Positions 13,991 to 58,690 of a stretch of DNA of 64,000 nt are shown piece by piece (within the stretch, counting starts at the first letter, position 1; each line of letters starts with the position of its first letter). The translations under genes and the position numbers were made by a program. The DNA is from Dicyema japonicum (lineage: Eukaryota > Dicyemida > Rhombozoa > Dicyemidae). The notes below the pieces were generated by a model. The model had not been told where the DNA came from. It searched no databases and worked only from the letters and a program-made list of their open reading frames with translations. Location of the stretch: positions 165,838-229,837 of the forward strand of contig RDEW01000065.1 in assembly GCA_011109175.1 (NCBI GenBank), read 5' to 3'.

Positions 13991-14957
13991 TTAGAATGAC
14001 TGCATAACAACACTCTTATGTTCAGCCTGTAAACTGTTATCTCCCAATCCACTAAACCCAGAGGCACCCTTGAATATAACACAAAGACCAACCCTCTTCA
14101 AATTAATCACATCATATTCGCTTATTGACTTGCCATTGATTGGGTCCTTCTTATCAATCTTTAAAGCAGTTTTAATGCAATCCAACTTCATAACAATACA
14201 TCTAAAATAGTAAAACATAATACGATGTTTTCAAAATAGCTGAGGGCACGGAATTCCCGAGGGGATCCCCACTCACTGGGCATATATAACGATCGTCACT
14301 CCCGCCAAGTTGTGTGGATCTGTCCCTGGAGCAGGTTCGAATCTGATTTCTATCAAATCCTTGAACTTTAGGGGCTTCCCAGTCATCGGACACAACACAG
14401 CTTTCGACTGGGGTTATAAAAAACACAGACTGGTGGGTCTGGTGGCGTCAGCTTGTATTCTGGGGTCAACGAAGGAATCCAAAAACAGTTCAACTCCTTG
14501 TTTTCGACAGTAGATGTGCCCGTCTTCATGACCTTGTGAGATCTGTTTGTTATAGACGCTTCCAAATCAGCATATTTCCGTTTCTTCTGATCATCTTGGC
14601 GGGCTTTATCTTTAGAATCTTTGGCCTTCTGTTCTTCCTTCCACCTCTGGTACTCCTTGGTCTTTCGTTCAATTTCCCTCTTAGAATTGACGATGTACTC
14701 TAGAATGGACTCTTTATCGAACAAATATCCGTCAGGACTGCAGTTAATGAGTAAATTACTTTATCATTGGGTGAGCACAGGGCTGCATTGTAAGACAACA
14801 GCAGTCAAAATCCTATATTGTCTATAATGACTACTTTGACTGAATCCTTAGACATTCTAAGTGTCTGAGATCCGTATCCTGATGATTTTGAATCCTTCTT
14901 TCTTTCGTTGTACGAGTATACTGAGTTTGCTGTTGCATTTCTGCCATGACGAGTCAT
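13991..14957 (-). CDS. NOSIP: NOSIP homologue (nitric oxide synthase-interacting protein, U-box E3 type)
   Basis: Six exons on the minus strand, start ATG at 14,955-14,957, stop at 13,991. The N-terminus MTRHGRNATANSVYSYNERK matches the invariant NOSIP start. Then come DFDCCCLTMQPC and PDGYLFDKESILEYI (first half of the split U-box), a lysine-rich coiled stretch (KKRKYADLE), the signature FWIPSLTPEYK, CPMTGKPLKFKDL, DDRYICPVSGDPL and the C-terminal GFSGLGDNSLQAEHKSVVMQ. Five introns restore the family alignment: 14,813-14,834 (22 nt), 14,738-14,759 (22), 14,408-14,430 (23), 14,202-14,223 (22) and 14,069-14,092 (24). The last is a multiple of three without a stop, so it is invisible to ORF finding. 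One frameshift lies in the CCC run at 14,301-14,303 (one base short). In other animals NOSIP is a nuclear/cytoplasmic ubiquitin ligase linked to eNOS traffic and the spliceosome; here only homology is shown. Confidence 0.93.
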
Positions 14958-15241
14958 TTTCAACAACAAGCAACTAAATGTTTTAAAATTTTGTTATAAT
15001 ATTCGAATATATTTATTTATAGTCTTAAATATTAAATTATTTACAATTTTTAGTCAAGCATGCATTCAATAATATAATAATTACATTAAAATTTCGGCCA
15101 CGTGCTTTTTCTTTTTTAAATAAAGTGTGGGTTTTTCCTACGCGGAGGTTAAGTAATGGAAACATTACTACTCCTCGGTTGAAGGGCTGGAAAAATTAAT
15201 TTGGTTTACTGATTTCGTGTACATTTGTGCTACTTGACGCT
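14958..15241. other. AT-rich intergenic stretch upstream of NOSIP
   Basis: Presumed 5' flank of NOSIP followed by the 3' flank of the next minus-strand gene. No defined promoter element is recognisable. Confidence 0.35.
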
Positions 15242-15508
15242 TTAAGGAAACCAAAGTTCTATCAGCTGATCTTTTGAGTTGGGAGTTTCAAAATTGATAA
15301 TCCCAGTGACTGCCAGAGTCAAATTCGTTTGTATCTCAGTGGTCATCATGAATTTGTTGGTGAAGACAAGTTGGTGATCTTTTCTGTTTCCTTGGAATGT
15401 CAATATTTTACCTGGAAGTGCCACTAGCTACATGGTCTTATGTAATTCAAAGTACTCTCCGTCGTACACAAAATTAAAAGTACCTGTTTTGATAGAGCTC
15501 GATGCCAT
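15242..15508 (-). CDS. unidentified short gene, one in-frame stop
   Basis: An ATG at 15,506-15,508 opens a frame of 88 codons to a TAA at 15,242, interrupted by one TAG at 15,428-15,430. The product begins MASSSIKTGTFNFVYDGEYF and continues past the stop with LVALPGKILTFQGNRKDH and LTLAVTGIINFETP. Alternating hydrophobic/polar pattern suggests a beta-rich soluble domain; no signal peptide or membrane segment. No 20-30 nt intron removes the TAG in frame, so it is either a nonsense change (one base from CAG) or an error. It is codirectional with NOSIP, 285 bp upstream. Family not recognised. Confidence 0.45.
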
Positions 15509-15779
15509 ACACCGTCAAAAGTTAAACGGATTCCAGTTCAGCAAATTTCTTGAATCAACTTATTTTGAATGTCTCATGTAAATAATTCTTTTTCAATATT
15601 TATAAAACTGAAGATATTATCCTGAGTCCGTAACTAGGTCGGTGATTTCTTGGTAAATAAGTGAAGCACTTTTACAATATCTATAATCCATATAGCCACT
15701 GTGTACAACAATTTTCAATGCCAGTATCTTTTATGCTCCTATTGTCAATTGTCAACATTTTTCAGCATTTTCAGATTGT
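15509..15779. other. no recognisable gene
   Basis: AT-rich sequence between the unidentified gene and an R-LINE fragment. Nothing assigned. Confidence 0.4.
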
Positions 15780-16165
15780 TTCCTAAAACAAGAGAAAATA
15801 AGCCCTGTCGGTGGACATAAGACAGATACTCAGGTCAGGTTCGATAAACCTGATATTTTTGTCCACGATAAGATGAAGAATGAAATTGTACTTATTGAAA
15901 ATGGGATTACTTCTCAAGGATTATTGAAACATACAGAAGTAGAAAAGTTACTAAGTACGATTTATTGGCTAGATAGCTCAAACTAATTTATGGTGCCACA
16001 GTAAAAGTCATACATATTGTTCTAACGTGGGACGGTGTCGTTTCGAAGGCCTATAAATCTCACTCGGGAGCCACCGCAATCGATGCACCGACTAGAACAT
16101 ACAATCAATCCGTTGTCCTCAAGAAGACTTTGGAGAGTATGTTGGTGGAGTATAAATAATGGGTG
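15780..16165 (+). mobile_element. R-family LINE endonuclease fragment, degenerate
   Basis: FDKPDIFVHDKMKNEIVLIE followed by GITSQ (15,840-15,920) is a diverged version of the restriction-like endonuclease at 16,921-17,000. Then a stop, VKVIHIVLTWDGVVSK in another frame, and a C-terminal remnant LKKTLESMLVEYK ending at a TAA at about 16,159. Older than the copy at 16,915, judging by its divergence. Confidence 0.65.
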
Positions 16166-16529
16166 CCCACTATCGTGGAAGATTTGGTTACAACAACCAA
16201 TCAACTAGTGGAATTAGCAATCAGTTCGATGACGTTCTAGGCAACCCAGGTGGGGAAGAAACGGTTGGTTTTCAGGTCAACAACTCTTCTTCTAAAGCGA
16301 GAAAGGTCTAGAAGCAGCTAGTAATTTTTATTTAATTGTGTTTTCCGTAAAATAAATATCGGTCCTTTTATACAGCCCTGCCGCAAAGGATTAGTAATGT
16401 AAATTTCAGCTTAGGAAAAACTCACATTTAAGAAGAACAGTCTTACTAATTACTCCAAGGCATTGAGAATGTCCTTGACTTCTCGTTCTTTTTTACTTTC
16501 GAGTCGTAGAAAATAAGAATGAATTAATA
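16166..16529. other. no recognisable gene
   Basis: Probably decayed 3' part of the R-LINE fragment, then AT-rich sequence. Nothing assigned. Confidence 0.4.
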
Positions 16530-16845
16530 TTATTATTTATTAACCCGGGATACACCGAGAAAGAAGTTAAAGTAAACAACTGATTAAGTGTATCCAGTTT
16601 TCACTTCTACGGAAACAGAGCCCATCCGGAATCACCATAAAAGGAAAAAAACTTCCATTACTTGCAGTTGTGGAAAACCCTCCAGTAAAGTGGGGAAGAG
16701 CAAATGATCCTTTTTCGTGCCGGGCTGGCACTGGGCGCCACACAGACAGGTGGATCACATGACGTCACTCTAAAAGAAAGAGAGAGGAGGAACAGACAAA
16801 CCAACAGAAAACTTCAACCAATTAGCCACGTAGCACCACATGGGC
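16530..16845 (-). repeat. 290-bp dispersed repeat, copy 1 (possible SINE)
   Basis: Nearly the same sequence recurs at 26,508-26,803 in the same orientation, about 85% identical by eye. Read on the minus strand, one end carries TGGCTAATTGG (16,823-16,833), which fits a tRNA-type A box; the other end (ACTTCTTTCTCGGTGTAT, AATAAATAATAAT) resembles the J-LINE 3' terminus. That layout, a pol III-like head plus a borrowed LINE tail, is what a SINE would show, but I see no convincing B box. Confidence 0.55.
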
Positions 16846-16914
16846 CACTAGGAATTTATTTTTAAAAATATAATTTTAGAATAGTTCATTTTAAATAAAA
16901 AAAGTTAATTAAGT

Positions 16915-17440
16915 ACCTCGGTGCTAGTCAAGCACAATAAACCGGACATTGTGGTACACGATAAGGAGTCTGGCCAAGTCCTTATCATAGAAGTTGGCAT
17001 CACGTCTCAAGACCGTTTGCAGACTGGGGAGGTGGAGAAAAAAAGGAAGTATGACTTTCTTGCAAACGAGATGAGGCAGATGCTTGGTTGGAAGGTCCTC
17101 GTTATTCTTATAGTAATGACGTGGAAAGGAATTGCAACGAAGTACCACAAGGGTTATCTGAAGCAGTTGGGGGTAGATAGGAAGCTCTAGGCCTATCTAC
17201 AGTCCACTGTGTTAAAGCGGACCCTAGAGAACCTGACACTGGAGTATAGGAGGCAGATCCCTGAGATGCCATATGGGCAGAGGGTTCAATTGGACAAGGC
17301 GCTCTCGGAGTTGTTTCAGCAACCAGAATCGAACCTGCCTGAGGAGGCTGGCGAACAGGCAGGCGAGGAAGGTTGTTGATTATTAAATATATTAACTTTT
17401 TTATTGTTTGTTAAATAAAGTTTAATATTTAATTTGAAAT
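16915..17440 (+). mobile_element. R-family (RLE-type) LINE 3' end
   Basis: The plus strand reads NKPDIVVHDKESGQVLIIEV and GITSQDRLQTGEVEKKRKYD, a PD-(D/E)XK restriction-like endonuclease as found at the C-terminus of R2/NeSL-type LINEs, then TWKGIATKYHKGYL. A TAG at 17,188-17,190 interrupts it; the frame continues (TLENLTLEYRRQIPEMPYG, FQQPESNLPEEAGEQAG) to a stop at 17,378-17,380. The 3' UTR ends in TTAAATAAAG at about 17,410. The last 140 bp are almost identical to 38,395-38,537 and its tandem copies. The element ends about 65 bp before the MTREX start codon. Confidence 0.8.
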
Positions 17441-17504
17441 TTGAATAATTATCTGCCGTGCTTTGCTTTTGTTTCTTGTTGTTTTGTAACTTTTTTAACG
17501 GAAA

Positions 17505-20500
17505 ATGGATGGATTGTTCGACAATGACTTGTTTTCAGTATTTAACGGAGAAAACAAAAAGAATAGCAAGAAACTTAAAAGAAAAAACTCATCGACGACG
17601 AGCAAAAACGAAAGTGGAGCCAAAAAGTCTACAAAGTAGTCCCTAATTGGTTCTACTTAGTTCTTCTAGCCTACCAGAACCGGACAACGATGTAGTTTAC
17701 CTTGGTACTGTAAATTACGACGAAGAATCCTCAAAAATGTATTTAATGAACTCACTTCAGATTACCAAACTCAAGTGACCTTAAAGACTTCGAAATTACA
17801 GATAAAAGTGAATTTTCATGGTAACTGTTATTTTTTATTTCTCAGTTTCCTTCAATCTTCAGAACGAGCCCACATTTACAGAATTGAATCCTCAGATAAG
17901 TGTCTTCACGAGGTAGCCAGCCGTAATTACTATTTTCAAGGTTGCGGTCCCCCATGACGAAGATTTGAAAACTTTGCATGCTCGTGTACCACCTGTGAGA
18001 GAGTTTCCATTCAAATTGGATGGCTTTCAAAGGGAAGCAATAAAATGTCTGGACAATGACCAGTCAGTCTTGGTTTCGGCCCACACCTCGGCAGGGAAGA
18101 CAGTCGTCGCCGAGTTTTGCTTTAATGACTAAATCAAAGATATGCCATAGCCAAGTGTGTGGAGGAACACAGAATGGTGATCTATACGACCCCAATAAAG
18201 GCTTTAAGCAACCAAAAGTACAGAGACTTGCAGGAGAAGTTCATCGATGTCGGTCTTGTAACAGGAGACGTGACTTATAATCCCAATGCCAAGATTTTGG
18301 TGATGACAACTGAGGTATATTCTAACTGATTGTAGATTCTGAGGAATATGTTGTACAGGGATCACAAGTTATGAGAGAAGTCGGTGGGTCGTCTTTGATG
18401 AAATCCACTACATGCGAGACAGAGGTTATATTGTTTTTTATCTCTAGAGAGGGGAGTTGTCTGGGAAGAAACTATCATTCTTTTGCCTGATACTGTCCAC
18501 TATGTGTTCTTGTCAGCAACTATTCCTAATGCCTCCCAATTTGCTGGATGGATTTGCCAGCTTCACAATCAGGTTGATGAGCATATATATCTTAGCATTG
18601 TCACGTGGTCTACACTGATTTCCGACCGACTCCGTTGCAGCATTTTATTTATCCTTGTGGGGGAGAAGGAATAAACTTAATTGTTGACGAAAATGTATTA
18701 ACTTGCTGTTATTTTAGGGTCAATTCAAATCGGAGAGTTTTGAGAAGGCTATCAAGCAAATTAGAAAGTCAGGTACCGCATCTAATACGACCACTCGTCC
18801 CAGAGTTTCTGGACAGTCTGGTTCACTCATTTTTATATTAAATAGCAAAGTCTAACATTCACAAGGTTGTCAGTTTTATTTCTGATGAAAACATGACGCC
18901 TGCAATAATATTTAGCTTTTCGAGAAAGGATTGTGAAGCTTATGGTCTAGAAATGGCAAAAATGGACTTTACTTCCAATGGTTTGTGATTTTTGCTGACT
19001 TTTAGACGAAAAGAGTATAATTCAGGAAATATTTTTAAATGCTATTGCCGATCTGTCTGATGAAGACAGAAAACTCCCACAAATACAAAACATGACTCCG
19101 CTTTTGAAAAAAGGGATAGGAATTCATCATTCTGGTCTTATGCCTATGGTAAAAGAGATTGTGGAAATCCTTTTCGGAGAGGGACTTTTGAAGGTATTCG
19201 TTTTGTAACAATTAAAGGTTCTGTTTGCGACAGAAACTTTTGCAATGGGAGTGAATATGCCTGCTCGGACGGTTGTCTTTTCTAGTATGAGAAAATTCGA
19301 CGGGAAACAAGTACGATCAATTACACCTGGGGAATACATTCAAATGAGTGGAAGAGCGGGGCGACGAGGACTGGATAAAATTGGGACCTCAATAATGATG
19401 GTTGATCAACAGTTTACGTCATCAGAGTGTCGAGATTTGTTTATGGTGTTTTTATATGTTAATTTGGCAGGGATCAGCTGATCCACTAAACAGTGCATTT
19501 CATTTGACTTATAACATGATCCTTCAGTTGCTTAGAGTAGAAGGAATTAATCCTGAATATATTATGGGGAGGTCATTCTTCCAATTTCAAAATTATGCTG
19601 CGATTCCTGGTCTGCTTGATGGTTAGTTCGATTGTTACTGGTAGATTTGAACACTTTGGAGCAGAAGTATTTATCCACCAAAATCCCCAATGAGGAGGAG
19701 ATTGCTGAGTATTACACTACAAGGAAGCATTTAGCATTGGCTGAAAATAAAATGCTTAAATTCTTACAAGATCCTATAAATTCTGTCCCCTTTCTGCAAG
19801 TTGGGAGACTCATAATGGTAGTAAAGTGAGTTACTTTAGATACGTCGAGATGAAGGTGACGATGCGTCCTCTTCTGTTTGGGCAGTTGTCCTTAACTGCT
19901 ATAAGTCGGAAGGGAAAGATGTTATTAATTATTATAATTTGTAGAAAAGTACTGATGAGAGTAAGAAATCCAGGACTTATGCGATTGATATTATGCTGGG
20001 TAACGGAAAACAACCTCAGGTTTATATTAGAGATAGTAGGTTTAATTGCAGATCATGAGTTTTACGCTTAATCAAGTCCGTAAGAATTAGCAGTGTGTGT
20101 CTTAAACTGCCCAAAGATCTATCTGGTGAGGATAATCAGCGACGTGTGCTGAGGATTATGGAGGTTGTTATTTGATATAATGTTTAGGAAGTCTCTAACA
20201 GATTTAAAGGGAATATTCCGCTGATTGATCCAGTGGAGGATATGAAAATAAAGAACACTGAGATTTCCTCAATTGTTGATAAAATGAAGGTTTTTGAGGA
20301 GAGGATGCAATTGCATCCATTTCATCATTCCCCCAATAAGGCTGAGCTTTGTGCTGCGTATCATTCAAAGCAACAGGTTCTTGTAATTATAAAATTCAGT
20401 TGGGGGAGAAAATAAAGTCTCTAAAACTTGATTTGAAACATAAAAAGTCATTGCTTCAAATGGACGAACTAAAATGCAGGAAGCGAGTGCTAAGGAGACT

Positions 20501-21124
20501 CAACTTTATAAACTCTAATGATGTGATTGACATGAAAGGACGGATTGCTTGTGAGATTTCAAGGTTTATTTATTTTTAATTTTTAGTGGAGACGAGTTGT
20601 TACTCACAGAACTGGTTTTTGCAGGATTCTTCAATGCTCTCTCCTGTGAGGACATTTGCTCAATTCTCAGCTGTTTTGTGTTCGAAATAAAGTCCACTTC
20701 TTTCCCCAAACTTTCTGAGATTTTAATGACTTGCTTATCGAAATTACAGGTTTTATGGTCGTTTAATTGTCAGGAAACTGCCAGAAGGATATCCGCTATT
20801 TCAGTTGAGTGCAAGTTGGATGTTGATGAGGATGAATACGTCGACTCGTTTAAGTCTGGGTTGATGGAAGTTTGCCGTGCATGGGCTGGTGGAATGTCTT
20901 TCAGTGGAATATGTGAACTGACTGATTATTTTGAGGGATGCGTTATTAGATCAATTAGGAGTATTGAAGAGTTGTTGAATGATTTGATAAGAGTGTCTAA
21001 GAATATGGGCTGTATTGAATTGGAAGAAAAGTTTCAAAAAATGTATTTTTATCTTAACCCCTTTATAATAGGCATTTCCCTTATCAAGAGAGATATTGTA
21101 TTTTCTTCTTCACTTTATTTGTAA
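17505..21124 (+). CDS. MTREX: MTR4/MTREX exosome-associated DExH RNA helicase homologue
   Basis: Ski2-like helicase that feeds RNA to the nuclear exosome. ATG at 17,505 gives [15 protein letters not shown], like the animal MTR4 N-terminus. Motifs in order: [19 protein letters not shown] (Walker A), [25 protein letters not shown] (DEVH box as DEIH), [57 protein letters not shown] and [15 protein letters not shown]. The KOW/arch region follows (QVGRLIM, then [10 protein letters not shown]), then [16 protein letters not shown] and the invariant C-terminus [13 protein letters not shown]. Eighteen well-supported introns of 21-32 nt: 17,913-17,940; 18,114-18,139; 18,315-18,335; 18,425-18,447; 18,573-18,595; 18,695-18,717; 18,821-18,845; 18,981-19,005; 19,194-19,217; 19,446-19,470; 19,622-19,644; 19,818-19,839; 19,921-19,944; 20,020-20,051; 20,164-20,187; 20,377-20,399; 20,564-20,586; 20,750-20,773. 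Three more are tentative (17,636-17,660; about 17,821-17,862; 21,043-21,071). One-base frame breaks occur near 18,385, 20,085 and the A-run at 21,036-21,041. The joining of exons 1-3 (17,505-17,912) is unresolved. Confidence 0.95.
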
Positions 21125-21725
21125 TAATTAGTTTTTTGATTAAATTTAATAATTACGATTTACTTTTAATATACCTTGTCTTGTGTTTTTGGCATACGAT
21201 CTTCTAGGTTAGTACGTACTTGAATACGTATTTTACTATAATTATTTTATTACAAATCCTAACAGGGGATACACCCGTTTACTGTTGTTCTTGGAACAGC
21301 CGATTACACTTGCTGATATTGGAAAGGATCATCTACCGATCTTTTATAATCGCAACTTCTCTTCTGTAGAGGTTTAATTTTGTTTTCTAATTTGGATCTT
21401 GATCCAACTCTCTCATTTCTTACCTGAAATCGTGCCTCGAAACGTATCCAAATCAAGTTTATTTGGTTAACAAAAAATCTCATTTGCTATCGAAATATGT
21501 AGTAATAGCATTGTTTGATAAACAAACTTTGGCCATGTCCCGATTCGCACTAACTGTTCCTTGGAGGTCCAAAATTTGAAATTAGTTTTTAATAACATTT
21601 TCTGGCAAATCTTGAGGATGGAGTTATCATCCAAACAGAGTAATGAAAAGCTGCTATGTCTTTCTGAGGTCCGTTTTCATGAAAAGCCGAGGATAACTTT
21701 GCCGGTCGTTCTACAAAGGTCTTGA
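21125..21725. other. no recognisable gene
   Basis: AT-rich 3' flank of MTREX. No domain or repeat recognised. Confidence 0.4.
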
Positions 21726-21845
21726 TAATATGTTGAAAAATGGCCAGGATTTCCTACGTTTCTGCAAAGAGCTAGGACACTCATTCAGAGATAGGGTTGC
21801 TCACGCAGAGGAATGTACAGGACAAACACTTTATTTAAGAACAGA
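21726..21845 (+). mobile_element. J-family LINE scrap
   Basis: MLKNGQDFLRFCKELGHSFR (about 21,730-21,790) matches the C-terminal J-LINE segment at 7,530-7,600 and 28,750-28,800 (NGQSFLRFC). Roughly 110 bp survive. Confidence 0.6.
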
Positions 21846-23030
21846 TAATTAATAGTTGGAAGGGCCAAAATGCATGTTTTTAACTTCTTTATTTTGGTTA
21901 CGTGCGGGTCTGTAAAAAACTGATACCATATTAGGTATTACTGATGATGGTGTACTATTTTCCTATGCACTGTAGGTTTCACAAGAGGACTCGGATGACA
22001 TACGTCAATAGACACGCTCTCATGGATTCTCTTGATCACGGTTACTCTATGTGCGGATATTTTTTGTTCCTTAAAATAACATTCAAGAAAAGTCTTTAGT
22101 AAAACATAAAGATAAATTTGTTTTTAATGAAGCTCCATAAAATTGAAAAAGTTTTAAAAGGTCATCTTATTGAGGATCTATCTATCCTCTTCTTTTAAAA
22201 CGTTTGTTGGCAGAATGAAAAAATCAAGAAAAATACCATAAAATCGCCTGTTCGAGGTCACATATAGGACCGTCCTCGAAAAGTTTCTAGAAGTCACATA
22301 TAAGATTATAGTTACTTTTGGGATCTTCGTCTTGAGTACATGTGGATACGACTATCCTTGTATGATTAATATTGTAATGGTCAATACAGGGTAGCTGAAA
22401 CTATTTTGTTTGAAACTATTGATCTCATCATTAGATAATTTTGCTATACTTAAGAAAATGGATCGTTTTGTGGTATTGAGAATATGAGCAGCATATTTCG
22501 CATCTTTAAAGAGATGATTCTCCAAGTTCTTTTCAATTTTGACTTGAAGGGATCTGAACTTTGGGAAATATTACTATGGAGTCAATTCTATATTTAGTGA
22601 CGTTTCTGGCAGACAACATTTGTCTCAGTTGTGAAGATTGTAGAAGGGTACGACCTGGACTATATGAGATTACTGACTCACGATCAAGGCTATAAGTACT
22701 ATGCTTCACGCGAATGTTTGATGATTTTTTTACATTTTCTTTTCACCTCCACAGTTATTACTTTCCCTTTATGTTGGTGCATTAATAATATCATCTTCAA
22801 CCATTTGCATTCTAACTGAGCATGTATTATTATATGCACTCATCGTCTCCTCTCTTTAGGTATTTCCTCACTCTTTGGAGGTCTTTGTGCAGTAAGGAGT
22901 ATTATCCTTGGTCGGCCACGAAAGCATTTCCCCTCGAACATGAAGTGATCCTCCATCGAGCATGTGACTTAAATATTATTATTAAAACGCACTCCTGAAA
23001 AAACATAAATTAGTTAAGTTTCCCTTGTGT
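21846..23030. other. no recognisable gene
   Basis: About 1.2 kb of AT-rich sequence with no open frame showing family resemblance and no run of small introns. The last 40 bp (attagttaagtttccc) resemble a LINE 3' tail belonging to the B-LINE that follows on the minus strand. Confidence 0.4.
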
Positions 23031-24790
23031 CGTATTCCTAATCATCCTCTCCGTCAGCCTCGACCATGATCCTCCGTAACTCGCTAATTCTCTTAGTTAG
23101 TTCAGGTCGTCCGCCGAAGTTAGTCTCATGCCAACCGCCGATAGGTCTGGAAGAGGTAAAAGATATCATTTTTGTTCACGATAGGCCAAAATGTCGTTCT
23201 TGGCCTTCCGCGGAATCCGACTCCTGTTTGTGCAAAGATGTTTCCATTGTGATATTTGCGTGGACCTGGTCATTTAGACGTAACACGTGGCCAAAAGGCT
23301 CCATCTTAATTTGAAAATATCATCTGACAGCACGCCGGATTTGCATTTATTATAAAGGTTTGCATTAGAGATTTCATAGGCCAGTTGATCTTGATTACCG
23401 ATTTGAGCTGAGCTCTGTGGAAGGAATCAAGACGATCCATTTCCCGTTTAGAGATTCCCCAAGTCCCGGAGTCGTAGGGTATACCGGGATAACAAAAGCT
23501 TTGTATATTCTAAGCCTGGTGTTAAGTCCTATCCTCTTCTTGTCGCTCCATTTTGACGATATTTTTTTCAGTGCACTCATAGCGATGATCTTCTTACGAG
23601 TAACATCTTCAGAGTCTCCTAGAAGCGAGCCAACCTTCTTTTGCTTCTCCATGACTCGTCCGATCTCCGATCATAACATGTAAGCGTTGTAAACTCCGTT
23701 TTGTCGGTATTTACGGTATGAACCATTTCGAAAATATGTGTTGTGGGAGTACGCTGAGCATGTGCTGAAGTGTTTGAGTATCTTCCGAGACAAATCCAGA
23801 TCGTCCACATAAATTATCTCGTCATAATTGTTTCCAATCATGGCCCTGAACTCTCTTAGTGCAGCTTCAAGATAAACATGAAAAGGACCGGGGATAGCGA
23901 GTCTCCCTGTGGAACTCCACGTGAAGTCGGAAAAAAGTTGGAAGTACATTTGCCAATTTTAACAGAAAAGTTAGTGTTCTGCAATGAGAAGGCGTATTAT
24001 TTTAACGTCTTCTGGGTGAAGAAAACTCTTCAGAACTTCCATAAGTTTTCCTTGATGTACCGAATCGAATGCACGGGACATATCAATGGCAAGTATTTCA
24101 ATAGATTTTTATATTTTTGGCATAGAGCACAATACCATCTGTGTCCCCAAACTACATCGGCTAGACCTGCCTGTCCGAAATCCACTTTGGCCGGGGATAG
24201 AATTTGTTCACTTGTTTTTTATCCGGTGTAATGTAATGAGGGACAGTGTTTTGTGTATGAAAGTTAGTAGAATTATTGGTCTAAGGTTGCAAAGGAGACC
24301 TTTAGCTTTCTCGGGTTTTTGTAGAGGTATTAGCCACCCTCTTTCCAGTTCAACGCATTGTCTTCCTGGAGAGACCGATTGAAAACATTAGTGATCATTT
24401 TGGCTAGCTCCTCAGGGGGATGTTTTAAAAGTTCTGCTGGGATATTATCTGGTCCTGTAGTTCTTCCGATGTCCAGTTTTTTGATTGCTTGAAGAGTTTC
24501 CGGAACGGTTAATAAAGTGGATTTGTCAGGTTTCGATAGTTTCATTGTGTGGTTAATTTTGCTGTGCGTGTTGAAGATATGATCAGAATGATATATTAGC
24601 ATTGTTAACGTCTCCAATGGTTATCTTGGACACTGATCAGGGCCGAACTCCTCCCTCTATTGAGGAGGCGAATTGCATTGAACATCCTTGGTCCATCTTT
24701 ATATTTCGTTATTTCGGAAAATTGATTTTCTGCTTCACTTGTGACTTTAATTATCATTAATATGTCTGAGATCAATGTTCCAAAGATCAC
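23031..24790 (-). mobile_element. B-family APE-type LINE, reverse-transcriptase half
   Basis: On the minus strand from the 5' side: linker YKDGPRMFNAIRLLNRGRSS (24,605-24,790); RT opening KKLDIGRTTGPDNIPAELLK (about 24,430-24,490); the catalytic motif as IIYVDDLDLS (23,790-23,825), with Val in place of the usual Ala; KKVGSLLGDSEDVTRKKIIA (23,585-23,645) and RLRIYKAFVIPVYP; a C-terminal FGHVLRLNDQVHANI; and the final GGRPELTKRISELRRIMVEA running to a TAG at 23,038. Several frame changes make it inactive. The 5' half (endonuclease) is absent; a J-LINE 3' end abuts at 24,785. Confidence 0.82.
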
Positions 24791-24915
24791 AGTAAAACCA
24801 AACTAACTAATCACATGAACTCGAAAAACTGGACCAACACCCTTATCTTGGCTCGTTGTCCCTCCTTCAAACCCACACAAGCACATATACGGGATAGAAC
24901 ACGATAATTACACGA
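24785..24915 (-). mobile_element. J-family LINE 3'-end fragment
   Basis: Aligns by eye with the 3' end of the large J-LINE at 2,335-2,470: shared cagtaaaacc, aactaacta, tcacatga/tcacgtga, gtccctcc-tc-aacccacac. It is inserted against the 5' end of the B-LINE in the same orientation. Confidence 0.55.
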
Positions 24916-25394
24916 GCGCCCTCCTCGATTCTTACGAATTAGTGATTCCAGATGGGTTGATGAGAAATCTTCCGATACTGGAGAGAAATGTATCCGTCTC
25001 TCTCACGACCCCGAAAGTCTCCACCGCAATAGGATAAATGTTAGTTATTGCTAAGTGACCCCTACTTTCTGATTTTTCCTCCGCCTTGTCTGTCACAAAA
25101 TCAATAGCACATAAACTCGATTTCATTCAAGTTATGTTAATTTATAAATTATCCGTTATTTGAATTGGTGACTAAACATTTGCGTTGAAATTTTATATCA
25201 AAAATTGTTAGTCAATAATCCATTTTAACCGCTTTTATTATACACATTCTTCGTAAAATCCAAGTGAGTTTGAGAATACTTGGATGACTTTGTCAACAAT
25301 TTACGCCCTAAATGGTTGAAATTGCTGATTTTATGATTTGCTATTGTAAAAATTCCCTTTAAATGCACTACGGAGCATATTCCCGCATTCTGTT
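24916..25394. other. no recognisable gene; upstream flank of next gene
   Basis: AT-rich. A minus-strand open frame at 24,932-25,126 has no family resemblance. The last part is the presumed promoter region of the gene at 25,395, without recognisable elements. Confidence 0.4.
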
Positions 25395-26210
25395 ATGTCT
25401 AGTCATTATATTGAGAGCTTTCTCAACAAATGGAAATCTTTGAGAAAAGAAAGATTACGGGAGTTAATGAAACAAAGATTTGTGAGTATCGGCGTGGTTT
25501 ATTACGTGGTTTAGGTTCTCCAGCTATTTTAATTGCTAGGTGGGTTTAATGTTGAAAATTCAGTCAACGTGACTGACAAGCAATTCACGGGCATAAAAGA
25601 CCAGACTGAATCTAATATCCACAATCACGTTACTAGTGTGGATGAGGATGTTGTTCCTAAATCTCCAAAAGTGGAATATGATGCTCAAGCAAAACCTGTT
25701 AAGAATAAGACTCCAAAGCTCAGAAAAGTTAAAGCAAAAACTTTCTCCCAATCCTCGGCTAAGAAAGTAAAAAACGAAGCATTCAATGATGCCGTTACGA
25801 ATGATATAAAGGTGGAGCCCCCGTGTATAGGAAATGATTGGACTACCAATGAGTTGGATTCAACCCTTGCTGATTTCAAGGAGAACTTGAATTCAAGTGG
25901 ACCCTCGGACGTTAAAGATCTCACCGTTGTGCGTAATACTGACATAAAACTTTCTGAATGTGATAATTCTGATGAACTTGAATCACTTAAAACTTCCTTA
26001 AAGCGTAAAAGATCTTCATTCCTACAATCCAGTGGGGAAGAAGTCACTTCTGTGCAATCAAATGTGGATGATCTGTTGGAATCAAGTACACTCTTTAATT
26101 GCAGGACTTGTTCATTCAATTCTGCTCGCAAAAGGATTATGATCAAGCATATTCGGACTACACACTTGAGTGAGAAACGACTCCATCTTCAGAGTCTGGG
26201 GTTTTTGTAG
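25395..26210 (+). CDS. unidentified acidic/lysine-rich protein with one C2H2-like zinc finger
   Basis: ATG at 25,395 gives a basic start MSSHYIESFLNKWKSLRKER; after a stop-containing gap the same frame continues at about 25,533 as a long open frame. A 54-nt intron from about 25,479 to 25,532 would join them in phase, but it is longer than the others here and tentative. The middle is low-complexity and charged (KNKTPKLRKVKAK, SLKTSLKRKRSSFLQ), likely disordered and nuclear. Near the C-terminus FNCRTCSFNSARKR followed by HIRTTH gives Cys-x2-Cys-x12-His-x4-His, a C2H2 pattern. Stop at 26,208-26,210. No named family recognised; a chromatin or DNA-binding role is a guess from composition. Confidence 0.65.
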
Positions 26211-26507
26211 ATTTTGCGACGCGACCTTTAAATATTCAACTGTTTGTATAAAATGAGAACGATTATCACACGTCAAAACTGAAAAATGAGTGATCTGATT
26301 TTTATTCTGGCTTTGTCTTGTCTTTTATGTTTATTACACATAGACCTCTCATGTTAGTAAGCTTTTATGTTAGGGTGGTGGAATTTGGTCATAATCAGAT
26401 GATGGATAATTATGCTGTTGTCATGACGGCGAGTATAGTCAGTACATGCTGAGGTCCTAGCTACGCCATGCTCGATGTGGTCCACATGTTAGGTGTGTTA
26501 TTATTTA

Positions 26508-26803
26508 TTAACCCCGAATACACCGAGAAAGAAGTTAAAGTAAACAACTAATTAAGTGTATCCAATTTCCACTTCTACAGTAACAGAGTCCATCCGGAAT
26601 CAGCATAAAAGGTAAGACGTCTATTACATGTAGTTGTGAAAACCCCTCCAGTAAAGTGGGGGAGAGCAAATGATCCTTTTTCGTTCCGGCCTGGCACTGG
26701 GCGTCACCTAGACAGGTGGATCACATGAAGCCACTCTAATAGGAAGAGAGAGGAGGAACAGATAAACAAGCAGAAAACTTCAACCAATTAGCCACGCGGC
26801 TCT
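26508..26803 (-). repeat. 290-bp dispersed repeat, copy 2 (possible SINE)
   Basis: Second copy of the repeat at 16,530-16,845, same orientation, differing by scattered substitutions and one-base indels. It retains the TGGCTAATTGG A-box-like word (minus strand, near 26,785) and the LINE-like tail at 26,508-26,560. It sits 300 bp downstream of the zinc-finger gene. Confidence 0.55.
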
Positions 26804-26964
26804 TAAATTAACAACATGTTAGGTGTTGCTTAGTTTGACCCTGAAGTGGTTGACAAAGAGGAATCATATCTATCCATTCTTACGCATATAATCCGTAATA
26901 AGGGATTTTGTATAATTTTTATGATTATCTGTTATTGCATAAAGGTTTAATAACTCTCAATTCA

Positions 26965-27320
26965 ATGGACAAGTCAATTTTTGGGAATTAAAATTACTGC
27001 ATCACCTCGTCGAATGGTTAGTCTGTCGGATGATACAAGGGGTGACGTACCTCATCTCCTCAAATGAACGTGAAGTTTCGCTCATCTCCTCGTGAAAAAG
27101 TAGAAAATGAAGGAAACAAGGTCACTTTGTAATAAAAAAAACTCGGGACTCCCAGTGCAACTGGAGTTTGCATTAATATTCTAATATGAAAGGGCCGAAT
27201 TCACTATGCCGTGGGGTTGAATCTTATCTGGAACAAAAATTGGAGGAAATTGGAAGTCTACTTAAGGCGGTGACAATTACAAAAGGTAATCTTAAAGCAA
27301 AACCACGTAAATCTATGTAA
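26965..27320 (+). CDS. unidentified small gene, tail-to-tail with MCAT
   Basis: ATG at 26,965 gives MDKSIFG; after a one-base shift in the GGG run at about 26,982-26,985 the frame reads ITASPRRMVSLSDDTRGD. Further exons in the same region read VKFRSSPREKVENEGNK and, after a probable 27-nt intron at about 27,163-27,189, CRGVESYLEQKLEEIGSLLK, ending AKPRKSM with TAA at 27,318-27,320. The product would be about 100 residues, basic, with a short coiled-coil-like C-terminal helix and SPRR motifs. The stop lies 25 bp from the stop of the convergent MCAT gene. Exon joins before 27,163 are uncertain; family not recognised. Confidence 0.5.
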
Positions 27321-27345
27321 AAAATGCACATTCGGAACAAGTATT

Positions 27346-28482
27346 TTAGTAAAAATCACACTTCCACAAAATAATAGGGTGCTGATCACGGTACTTTGCA
27401 TTAATGGAAGAGTTTATTAGAGGTTTCAGTTGCCTACCAGGACCGACTTCGTAAACATTTCGCTTGGATGGTGAATTAAACAAATATTCCATGGTTTGTT
27501 GCCATTTTACTGGCGACACAACCTGGTGACCAACAAATCCTTATCTCCTCCACGTTTTTGTAGGGTTTAGCTGATAGATTAGATATTACGTTAATTTTGG
27601 GCTCATTAAATTTAACATTGCTAAATTTAGTCAAAAACAAACTTTAAGACATCTTTGAGTTCATCGCAGGCAAAATTCATCATCTGAGTATGAAAGGCCC
27701 CACTGACTGAAGCCTCTTAACTTTCCGAATTCCAAATTTGGAACTATTTGCTCGATAAACTCCAAAGCCTACAATTAAACAATAGTCACCTCTACAGAGC
27801 CACCAATTACTTGAAATGCGGATGAAAGATAATTTGCAGGCTGGCAAACTGGATTAGCGATTCCCAAAGAATGACAGTGCTCAATAGCCGCCTTGCAGCA
27901 TCTTCTATGTTCGAGATTCCGTTGACCATTATAGAAATCATCCCTCCATTAGTCATCTCCGAAGCCTTCTGCATGGAAGTAGCACGAACTTTTACAACTT
28001 TTATTGCTGTTTGGATTACAAATATGACAAACCATCCTCGAAAGACAGGCACTCTGAGAAAACCAGAGAAGTATATTCTCCCAAACTCAATCCTGCGGTA
28101 TAATTGCAAGTTCTAAGAGCTTCTGGATCTTCATTCTCAAGTTTTCCGAGAGAGGCCAGAGATGTGACCATAATAGCTGGTTGGGAGATTTCTGTCCTCA
28201 TTAATTTGTCAGATGGCCCTTCCAAACATAACTAAAATGACATTATAATATACTTTCAGTAGATCATATCCTAAAATAACACTCGCTCTCTCAAAAAGAT
28301 CAACAGATTTCGGAAAGTGCTTCAACTTTGATGCCATACCGATAAATTGGGAGCCCTGTCCAGGAAAAAGAAGCACAGACGATTCCTTCAATATCTGAGT
28401 TTGCGAACACACAGCCTGCATCACTTGAGCAGTTCCTTAACACAGCTCTGACAGAAGCAAATGGGAGCCTTAACGTGAACAT
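27346..28482 (-). CDS. MCAT: mitochondrial malonyl-CoA:ACP transacylase homologue (MCAT/FabD type)
   Basis: Transfers malonyl from CoA to acyl carrier protein in mitochondrial fatty-acid synthesis. ATG at 28,480-28,482 starts an arginine-containing leader MFTLRLPFASVRA, suitable as a mitochondrial presequence. Then SSVLLFPGQGSQFIGMASKL, the nucleophile elbow as AGLSLGEYTSLVF (GLSLGE in place of the usual GxSxGE), VRATSMQKASE with the conserved Arg, EHCHSLGIANPVC, SGAFHTQMM with the catalytic His, PVKWQQTMEYL and YEVGPGRQL. Introns: 28,416-28,443 (28 nt), 28,232-28,253 (22), 28,007-28,032 (26), 27,769-27,789 (21), 27,621-27,642 (22). Four further frame breaks, near 27,893, 27,713, 27,512 and 27,540, each resolve by one base in a two- or three-base run. 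About 340 residues, close to the animal protein. Confidence 0.93.
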
Positions 28483-38345: not shown

Positions 38346-38394
38346 ATATTAAATTAATATAAATTTATCAAAATTTGACTTTAGTAATCTAGGG

Positions 38395-38540
38395 AAGAGG
38401 GTTCAATTGGACAAGGCGCTCTCGGAGTTGTTTCAGCAACCAGAATCGAACCTGCCTGAGGAGGCTGGCGAACAGGCAGGCGAGGAAGGTTGTTGATTAT
38501 TAAATATATTAACTTTTTTTATTGTTTGTTAAATAAACGT
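38395..38540 (+). mobile_element. R-family LINE 3' end (unit 1)
   Basis: Almost identical to 17,275-17,420 (ALSELFQQPESNLPEEAGEQ and the following 3' UTR), including the stop and TTAAATAAA. A severely 5'-truncated insertion that predates the duplication, as it is in all three units. Confidence 0.85.
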
Positions 38541-47559: not shown

Positions 47560-48630
47560 ACAATAGGGTGGCATTATGTGGTTCTCCAATTAGACAAATT
47601 TTGAAGACGCCAGGGGCACCTAATGCATACCGAAAAGGACCAATAGACCTTCTCCTCCGGGGAGCACATACAATTCGTTACATTTGAAAATCTGTTTCCA
47701 TGTATTCCGATTTTAGCTGCGTTCGCATCAATAGTTTATGCTCTTTGTAGAAATAGTCATTCCGGAATCAAGATTAATCAGTAGAAGAAAATTTTGATAT
47801 ACCAGACAATCTGCTATGAAAAGAAAGAGACAAAAATAAGAAAATTGACCCGACAATTTACAGAGCAAACTCAAAAAATGTTTCCTCATTGAAATTCCTG
47901 GTCGCACAACAATAAAATATCATATTTTTCATTAAAAATATCAATAACTGATCAATGTAGATAGGGAAAAATCAAATAGTGGAGAATAATCAATATTCAT
48001 TGGTTACCAAAATATAAATATATTAGACATTTTGATAATAGACTTCAATGCTATTTGATGAATCCAATAATATATATAATATTTACGCAAATGTATCACA
48101 ATACAACAAAAATATACAATAAAATTCAAAACAAAAAAACCAACCACAAGAACGTGGCAACTGCACGCCAAAGAAAATACAAATGTATTAAAAGGTTAGC
48201 CACATTATAAAACAATTCAATTTTATTATAAGAAAAAGAATAGTTAATTTTAATTTTAATTATTCAGCTGTTGGGAGATGCATAAGCTATTCCCACGGAC
48301 AACAGCCAACGAGAGCCTCTCCTTGAGCCATCTCGTCTCACGAAGATCACCAGTTTTGTCGGATAGTAGTTTTCCAAGATGATTCAGGAACTTCAGCGTT
48401 TTAGGGCCAAAGTTCAAAACAATTTAAAAAAATAAATATTAAATTAATATAAATTTATCAAAATTTGACTTTAGTAATCTAGGGAAGAGGGTTCAATTGG
48501 ACAAGGCGCTCTCGGAGTTGTTTCAGCAACCAGAATCGAACCTGCCTGAGGAGGCTGGCGAACAGGCAGGCGAGGAAGGTTGTTGATTATTAAATATATT
48601 AACTTTTTTTATTGTTTGTTAAATAAACGT
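47560..48630. repeat. unit 2 mid-section: broken membrane-protein gene, AT repeat, RLE LINE ends
   Basis: Copies of unit-1 features: small membrane-protein gene (47,560-47,820, extra C as in unit 1), AT-rich repeat (about 47,965-48,220), minus-strand RLE LINE RT scrap (48,258-48,420) and R-LINE 3' end (48,483-48,628). Confidence 0.6.
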
Positions 48631-50712: not shown

Positions 50713-52127
50713 ATGGCAAGTTTATTATCAGAAATTAAAGAAAAATACAACAAATCAGAATATTCAGAAAACGGTTGATTTTCCTATAAAATTAGCAAGA
50801 AGTCGTCGATTTCGCTATGAAAAGTGAATTCTACTTGAAATGTCGTCAAAAGAAATTAAATAACGAATTTCTGAAAAATTTAAAGCACAACAAATTTGAG
50901 GAAAAGCTCAGCCATATCAAGGAGGCCCAAAAGATCTGGCTTAGAAAATTAAGAATCGGCATCAACGGTCTCTCAACTTTCCACAATCTCAAATTGGCAT
51001 CAAAACGGAGTCAGACTTCCTCGGAGGTGATTTCGCCACAAAGAAGCGATATTTTGGGCTTGCACAGGGATGTTACCCCAATTTTTAGTTCTGATGACTT
51101 ATTGAATACTATCGCTAAGATCAGTAACCCAAATATAAAAAAGGACCTCCTCTTTGAGTCGAATCTCCCCGTAGTCGTCAAGCTGAGTCTCAGATGGACT
51201 CCTTTTGAGAAACTGAAGGATCTAGTTGAAATATTTGGGGACATCAATGGACAAGACGACAAATATGGTGAAATACTAAATCGTCAAGACATCAAAGCGG
51301 CCACTGAGATATGCGCACGTGGGTGTCCTTTGGGAATGAGAGGGTCAATTTGGAAGTTGGCATTTGGAATATATCCAGAGGACAGGACAAAGTACTTCAG
51401 TGGACTGAAGGATCACTTTCTCAAATATGAAATGCTGGTCGACTACGTGGTGGAAGAGGACATTAGACAAACCGTGACTAACGACGATCAGTACTTTGTA
51501 TTTGAGGACTTTATCCGCCAAATATTCCACTCTTTCATGAGAGATTCGGAAGTTACCGAAAGCATTGGATTGCTCAACGAGAATCAGTTCCTGAGATCAA
51601 AGAATTCCGTTGGAGATACTGTCGTGTATCCCCCAAATGGGTATGTCCCCTACCATGGCTTCAGTTACCTCATTGCCCCTTTCTGTTATCTCTACACCGA
51701 TATTGAAGATATCTACTTTGTTTTCCGGGCATTTTTTGAGCGTCATTTTATATATTTGACCACAATATCCTCGCATAAGGAGTCGATCCTTTCACTCTGT
51801 GTACAATTTGAGCAACTTTTGATGGAAAAAGAGACGCACGTGTGCGCTCATATGAAGAAGATTGACATATATCCCCTCAATATCGCTTTTGGTTGGATTG
51901 TTAGCGCATTTTCGTGGTATTTGGCGAATGAGGAACTACTTTTACTATGGGATCGAATCATTGGGACCCAATCGCTGACAATTCTTCCAGTTTTGTCTGT
52001 TGCTATCATTTCCTTTCGTCGGGATAACGTATTGTGTGCTGAGTCCTCACAAGATATCGAAGCGATATTTTCGGATATAAAAAATATAAAAATTAATATT
52101 ATTTTGAAGAAATTTATTTTTGAGTAA
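50713..52127 (+). CDS. TBC1D19: TBC1D19-like protein, copy 2, intact
   Basis: The only copy that reads through. Exon 1 50,713-50,773, 26-nt intron 50,774-50,799 (donor GT, acceptor CAAG), exon 2 50,800-52,127; 1,389 coding bases, 462 residues, against roughly 526 in the human protein. The N-terminal half is helical and charged (NNEFLKNLKHNKFEEKL, HIKEAQKIWLRKLRIGINGL); the TBC domain runs from about residue 175 to the end (RGCPLGMRGSIWKLAFGIYP, TVVYPPNGYVPYHGFSYLIA, SYLIAPFCYLY, NIAFGWIVSAFSWYLANEEL, LLLWDRIIG). Start chosen by homology and in-phase splicing; ATG at 50,701 is an in-frame alternative. Likely acts on membrane-traffic GTPases or as a scaffold; the catalytic Arg motif of active TBC proteins is not apparent, as in TBC1D19 generally. 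Confidence 0.93.
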
Positions 52128-58044: not shown

Positions 58045-58690
58045 ATAATCAATATTCATTGGTTACCAAAATATAAATATATTATACTTTTTGATAATAA
58101 ACTTCAACGCTATTTGATGAATCCAATAATATATATAATATTTACGCAAATGTATCACAATACAACAAAAATATACAATAAAATTCAAAACAAAAAAACC
58201 AACCACAAGAACGTGGCAACTGCACGCCAAAGAAAATACAAATGTATTAAAAGGTTAGCCACATTATAAAACAATTCAATTTTATTATAAGAAAAAGAAT
58301 AGTTAATTTTAATTTTAATTATTCAGCTGTTGGGAGATGCATAAGCTATTCCCACGGACAACAGCCAACGAGAGCCTCTCCTTGAGCCATCTCGTCTCAC
58401 GAAGATCACCAGTTTTGTCGGATAGTAGTTTTCCAAGATGATTCAGGAACTTCAGCGTTTTAGGGCCAAAGTTCAAAACAATTTAAAAAAATAAATATTA
58501 AATTAATATAAATTTATCAAAATTTGACTTTAGTAATCTAGGGAAGAGGGTTCAATTGGACAAGGCGCTCTCGGAGTTGTTTCAGCAACCAGAATCGAAC
58601 CTGCCTGAGGAGGCTGGCGAACAGGCAGGCGAGGAAGGTTGTTGATTATTAAATATATTAACTTTTTTTATTGTTTGTTAAATAAACGTA
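58045..58690. repeat. unit 3: AT-rich repeat and RLE LINE ends
   Basis: AT-rich repeat (about 58,045-58,300), minus-strand RLE LINE RT scrap (58,320-58,480) and plus-strand R-LINE 3' end (58,542-58,687), as in unit 1. Confidence 0.6.

Follow-up and report, generated by a model that had tools for sequence, protein, structure and literature searches.

How introns of little more than 20 nucleotides (nt) can be recognized and removed from the genes of an animal is the question raised by a 64,000-nt stretch of the Dicyema japonicum genome (assembly GCA_011109175.1, contig RDEW01000065.1, positions 165,838–229,837), referred to below as the window. Based on sequence comparison, we show predicted GT-AG introns of 21–28 nt in ordinary genes, both inside the window and at loci on four further contigs, and the coexistence of these short introns with a putative U12 small nuclear RNA (snRNA) gene and four AT-AC introns of the U12 type of 48–58 nt. 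The best joint explanation would be that a conventional major spliceosome handles the short GT-AG introns of a dicyemid, with, less certainly, a length limit on U12-type introns; to this reading as a whole we assign a probability of roughly 0.85. The host assembly comprises 64.67 Mb in 191 contigs, and the published dicyemid value is 67.5 Mb (PMC6736024; this and the other papers are cited from the available parts of the sources).

The spliced aligner compares a protein profile with DNA at a flat cost per intron; introns need be at least 10 nt and may be of any greater length, so no length is presupposed. GT-AG boundaries were imposed in the standard runs, and all 256 boundary pairs were tried in turn as a control. 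The MTREX profile consisted of 20 of the 120 MTR4 homologues among the matches listed, and one human sequence each, from a PDB alignment, served as reference for NOSIP and MCAT. Accepted as introns were 17 of the 19 gaps called in MTREX (21–28 nt), four of five in NOSIP (22–23 nt) and four of seven in MCAT (21–26 nt), and their removal restores homology in the coding frame in all three genes, as it does at four loci on other contigs. The original prediction, that removing ultra-short GT...AG segments restores the family alignments, is borne out by these spliced alignments, including its shortest intron, the 21-nt segment at 18315–18335 in MTREX; its counts of 18, 5 and 5 for MTREX, NOSIP and MCAT were slightly high. 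For TBC1D19, the single intron claimed is probable: a 26-nt segment joins two open frames, as read by eye from frame translations with no reference aligned.

The gaps that were dropped comprise a 90-nt MTREX gap (17636–17725) in the poorly conserved N-terminus, a 10-nt MTREX gap (18368–18377) that bridges frame changes within a single exon, a 17-nt NOSIP gap (14350–14366) that resembles a frame change in an exon, and three MCAT gaps of 31–35 nt, rejected because their sequence looks exonic and surrounds apparent frame changes. Such apparent frame changes are present in conserved exons at 18336–18424 in MTREX, around 14290–14366 in NOSIP and around 27523–27926 in MCAT, and represent either assembly errors or decay; the four loci outside the window showed none where they were aligned.

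The boundary control in MTREX gives a score of 2220 for GT-AG and 2060 for the runner-up, a 160-point lead, with a mean of 1690 for the other pairs (standard deviation (sd) 194) and 428 when no introns are allowed. GT-AG also ranks first of the 256 pairs in NOSIP (479 vs 454). When no boundary rule is applied to MTREX, 19 gaps are still called, most of them 21–30 nt long and near the same places. Outside the window, four of eight fetched DEAD-domain loci were used, which PDB searches name as two eIF4A3-like genes (L004 and L007), DDX47 (L002) and ASCC3 (L005). All 17 introns called by spliced alignment at these loci were accepted (21–27 nt), and GT-AG ranks first in three of them and shares first place with two other pairs in DDX47.

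Pooling of the seven genes on five contigs yields 42 accepted GT-AG introns of 21–28 nt (median 23, mean 23.5, sd 1.6); ab initio gene models, which contain gaps of widely varying length, provided queries and leads and were excluded from the length counts. At the 5' site, T occupies position +3 in 20 of the 42 introns and A in 17, and +5 is G in nine; position −1 is G in 23. The same gene spans contain 278 other GT..AG pairs of equal lengths, which were used as decoys, and an intron therefore cannot be told from its boundaries and length alone. T-richness and a TRAY motif help in the distinction: the T fraction alone separates introns from decoys with an area under the curve of 0.88, and TRAY, a weak signal, is found 6–11 nt before the intron end in 24 of the 42 introns compared with 41 of the 278 decoys. 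The motif-based distances are 15 nt (median; range 7–20) from the 5' site to the branch point and 7.5 nt (range 4–16) from there to the 3' end, and the earlier remark that little room is left between branch point and splice sites was thus right. In-frame stops occur in all ten introns of length 3n and in 17 of the 32 others, a pattern favoured by the aligner's stop penalty.

The genome contains 11 matches to U1, of which ten have the normal 5' end CTTACCTGG. No altered U1 5' end that would fit T at +3 was found. For U2 and U6, 22 of 25 and nine of ten matches, respectively, are above the cut-off, and the pairing sequences are normal (GUAGUA in one aligned U2 copy, ACAGAGA in two aligned U6 copies). 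An SF1-HH match reaches 80.5 bits (cut-off 29.3), and a U2AF65-like locus on contig C114 has four U2AF_lg profile matches in order, with intervening gaps of 22, 23 and 50 nt. These matches back the earlier interpretation of the segments as spliceosomal introns, which is also supported by the preference for GT-AG, the T-richness, the weak branch signal and the restored homology. Since the snRNA pairing sequences found beside introns of 21–28 nt appear canonical, the short length needs no changed U1, U2 or U6. We infer that splicing of the short introns is the work of a conventional major spliceosome, with normal pairing sequences in U1, U2 and U6, with SF1 and with a U2AF65-like protein. Because the 5' site holds little beyond GT, recognition would depend mainly on intron length within narrow limits, on T-richness and on a weak branch point located just before the AG. 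Five full-length U2 matches (L034–L037 and L040), some on each strand, share a region of about 111 kb at 851–962 kb of contig C115. ARAGORN and Rfam, at gathering thresholds, gave no match in the window.

As for the minor system, the U12 snRNA has a single match (85.4 bits, cut-off 53). The patterns for U12-type introns admitted lengths of 30–70 nt with an AC end and 22–64 nt with an AG end. Homology is restored across the junction at four of the eight places matched by the AT-AC pattern, and all four accepted introns carry a ATATCCTT 5' site, a TCCTTRAY branch site and AT-AC ends; two of the 15 matches to the AG-ending pattern fall on the introns in PI-PLC and GGPP synthase. The predicted branch adenosine is 43 (PI-PLC), 46 (CaV2), 45 (GGPP synthase) and 41 nt (SMAP) from the 5' end. 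In the ab initio models of CaV2 and PI-PLC, the AT-AC intron is followed directly by a GT-AG intron, of 24 and 23 nt, respectively, and splicing it lifts the Ion_trans score from 16.9 to 63.7 and the PI-PLC-Y score from 95.4 to 115.7; the models leave the next intron in SMAP and GGPP synthase unresolved. Left uncounted were a 35-nt pair (L064/L065), whose flanks stay open over no more than 18 and 4 codons, and four other short candidates, L067, L068, L070 and L075. Each of these four has a longer open flank on at least one side, but the peptides obtained by joining their flanks hit no Pfam family, in a test that covered these four of the 15 AG-pattern matches.

With less certainty, the U12-type introns may have been unable to shrink as far as the major ones. 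The U11/U12 di-snRNP (small nuclear ribonucleoprotein) holds the 5' site and the branch site as one unit, and U12-type introns might remain longer because the two sites are bound together in this way, whereas U1 and U2 bind independently. For a contrast based on four introns and bounded search ranges, this is a plausible explanation. A more specific proposal, that the major spliceosome handles about 23 nt and the minor one stops at about 45 nt, even in neighbouring introns of a single gene, with the di-snRNP having to span both sites, is tentative, and we would place it somewhat below even odds.

A different origin of the contrast is that minor introns are longer by history or neutral drift, being few and slow to shrink, with no physical floor. 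Larue and Roy (2023) describe species in which minor introns are far longer than major ones, under a title that favours neutral processes (PMC10639083), and the present set contains only four minor introns. Drift fits less well with the spacings between the 5' and branch octamers, which are 28, 31, 26 and 30 although 8–38 was admitted, and with Blastocystis, whose minor introns, the shortest set surveyed, average just under 42 nt in a survey that excluded introns below 30 nt (PMC10639083). We consider drift a possible cause, with a chance that falls a little short of one in two.

Several observations weigh against the combination of short GT-AG introns, a conventional major spliceosome and a U12-type length limit. 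In MCAT, the weakest case, GT-AG is second of the 256 pairs (435 vs 448). The equal-scoring set from the free-boundary run in MTREX includes the GT-AG placement in only six of the 19 gaps, and the exact intron ends therefore depend on the GT-AG rule. All 11 U1 matches fall narrowly or clearly short of the Rfam cut-off (69.5; best match 69.0), and the best U2AF_lg match scores 82.6 where the whole-protein cut-off is 310.3, a shortfall that single exons would be expected to show. The AT-AC pattern gave 11 rows at eight places and eight in the reversed control, which is no clear excess, and the AG-ending pattern gave 15 and 14, which is no enrichment; since neither clearly exceeds its control, the support for U12-type introns comes from homology and not from counts. 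The minor introns number four, their length range is bounded on both sides by the pattern limits, and all are near-perfect in signal, so that weaker ones would escape the patterns. Two of the supporting domains are below the Pfam cut-off (GGPP synthase 14.3 vs 27, SMAP 24.2 vs 28.7), and a uniform model gives P = 0.02 for the clustering of the four spacings and P = 0.03 for all being at least 26. A 25-nt U12-type candidate, L067, lies between reading frames that stay open for 30 and 38 codons and may still be a genuine intron.

An artefact, in which decayed or misassembled genes contain frame changes that the aligner disguises as short introns, is a highly improbable source of the segments: in the window, five of the called gaps do look this way (one in MTREX, one in NOSIP, three in MCAT) and were dropped together with the ambiguous sixth at 17636–17725, but the accepted introns have length, T-richness and branch motif in common, and every intron called on the other contigs was accepted. 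Internal eliminated sequences of ciliates likewise fall into tight length classes. That the segments are such DNA elements, eliminated in the soma without RNA splicing, is hardly credible given that GT-AG is the top boundary pair in MTREX, that a branch-point-like motif is enriched close to the 3' end, that genes of both splicing systems are present in the genome, and that a paper on Dicyema sp. terms such introns spliceosomal (PMC6543705).

Almost half of the window (33518–63997) is an array of three tandem repeat units, each about 10.1 kb long and 97–98% identical, and the TBC1D19-like gene (50713–52127) sits inside it. A 146-bp piece with 98.6% identity is found beside MTREX (17275–17419) and, at about 10-kb spacing, in three copies in the array (38392–38537, 48482–48627 and 58541–58686). 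Numerous innexin matches mark the genome as that of an animal. A protein search with one innexin returned only seven relatives: five carry the label Octopus sinensis and two are unnamed. One of these five shares 70–74% identity with another locus of the genome. Octopuses were the source of D. japonicum, whose genome project filtered host reads with O. sinensis tissue (PMC6736024). The five labelled innexins (P0121–P0125; loci L054–L061) look like dicyemid contaminants of the octopus assembly, and the contaminant is probably another dicyemid species than the one studied here; read in this way, the matches make a dicyemid source of the present genome very probable.

Table 1. Predicted introns of the window (positions within the window) and AT-AC introns of the genome
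Feature	Length (nt)	Position	Strand	Evidence
MTREX intron	28	17913..17940	+	spliced alignment
MTREX intron	26	18114..18139	+	spliced alignment
MTREX intron	21	18315..18335	+	spliced alignment + boundary controls
MTREX intron	23	18425..18447	+	spliced alignment + boundary controls
MTREX intron	23	18573..18595	+	spliced alignment
MTREX intron	23	18695..18717	+	spliced alignment + boundary controls
MTREX intron	25	18821..18845	+	spliced alignment
MTREX intron	25	18981..19005	+	spliced alignment + boundary controls
MTREX intron	24	19194..19217	+	spliced alignment
MTREX intron	25	19446..19470	+	spliced alignment
MTREX intron	23	19622..19644	+	spliced alignment
MTREX intron	22	19818..19839	+	spliced alignment
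MTREX intron	24	19921..19944	+	spliced alignment
MTREX intron, exact ends less certain	24	20036..20059	+	spliced alignment
MTREX intron	24	20164..20187	+	spliced alignment + boundary controls
MTREX intron	23	20377..20399	+	spliced alignment
MTREX intron	23	20564..20586	+	spliced alignment + boundary controls
NOSIP intron	22	14813..14834	-	spliced alignment
NOSIP intron	22	14738..14759	-	spliced alignment
NOSIP intron	23	14408..14430	-	spliced alignment
NOSIP intron	22	14202..14223	-	spliced alignment
MCAT intron	22	28232..28253	-	spliced alignment
MCAT intron	26	28007..28032	-	spliced alignment
MCAT intron	21	27769..27789	-	spliced alignment
MCAT intron	22	27621..27642	-	spliced alignment
Probable TBC1D19 intron, outside the 42	26	50774..50799	+	frame translations by eye
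PI-PLC AT-AC intron	58			PI-PLC-Y match spans junction
CaV2 alpha-1 channel AT-AC intron	53			gapless PDB alignment across junction
GGPP synthase AT-AC intron	52			gapless PDB alignment across junction
SMAP ArfGAP AT-AC intron	48			gapless PDB alignment (SMAP1) across junction

The window thus comes from a further genome supporting that an animal can carry introns near 21–28 nt while its snRNA pairing sequences appear canonical. The contrast between 21–28 and 48–58 nt, in two cases seen inside a single gene, offers a direct route to what sets minimum intron length, and if the proposed limit is true, dicyemids would be a natural experiment gauging the physical length limit of each spliceosome. 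Because the host is a dicyemid, a group whose ultra-short introns and weak 5' sites have been described before, the core finding is real but not new, and the original prediction correctly listed dicyemids among the few known cases. For dicyemid introns, a paper on Dicyema sp. reports a median of 27 nt, with about two thirds below 30 nt (PMC6543705), the D. japonicum genome paper gives a mean of 38.2 nt (PMC6736024), and a table row for D. acuticephalum gives 25 and 24.93, which we read as lengths (PMC2483917). Compared with these, the introns described here, a small sample from conserved genes, are slightly shorter and tighter. D. acuticephalum has the weakest known 5' boundary score, and that study saw no signature of a branch point (PMC2483917), whereas a weak signature is present in our set. 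U12-type introns of dicyemids were not met in the available parts of the literature on dicyemid introns (including PMC2483917), and dicyemids are not mentioned in the available main text of the minor-intron survey (PMC10639083). As far as searches on dicyemid and minor introns show in the accessible parts of that literature, the length contrast between the two classes is absent from it.

Further afield, the introns of Paramecium and Nyctotherus are about 25 nt long, as here (PMC5014332). These organisms are ciliates, whereas the present host is an animal that keeps AT-AC introns. The nucleomorph of Bigelowiella natans, unlike the present host genome, is a remnant endosymbiont genome. It is grouped with dicyemids and Paramecium as having the shortest intron sets at high density (PMC2483917). 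The closest counterpart to the minor introns is found in Blastocystis, where these are also short and mostly AT-AC; its 253 minor introns have a mean just under 42 nt and a median of 39 nt (PMC10639083), compared with 48–58 nt for the four described here.

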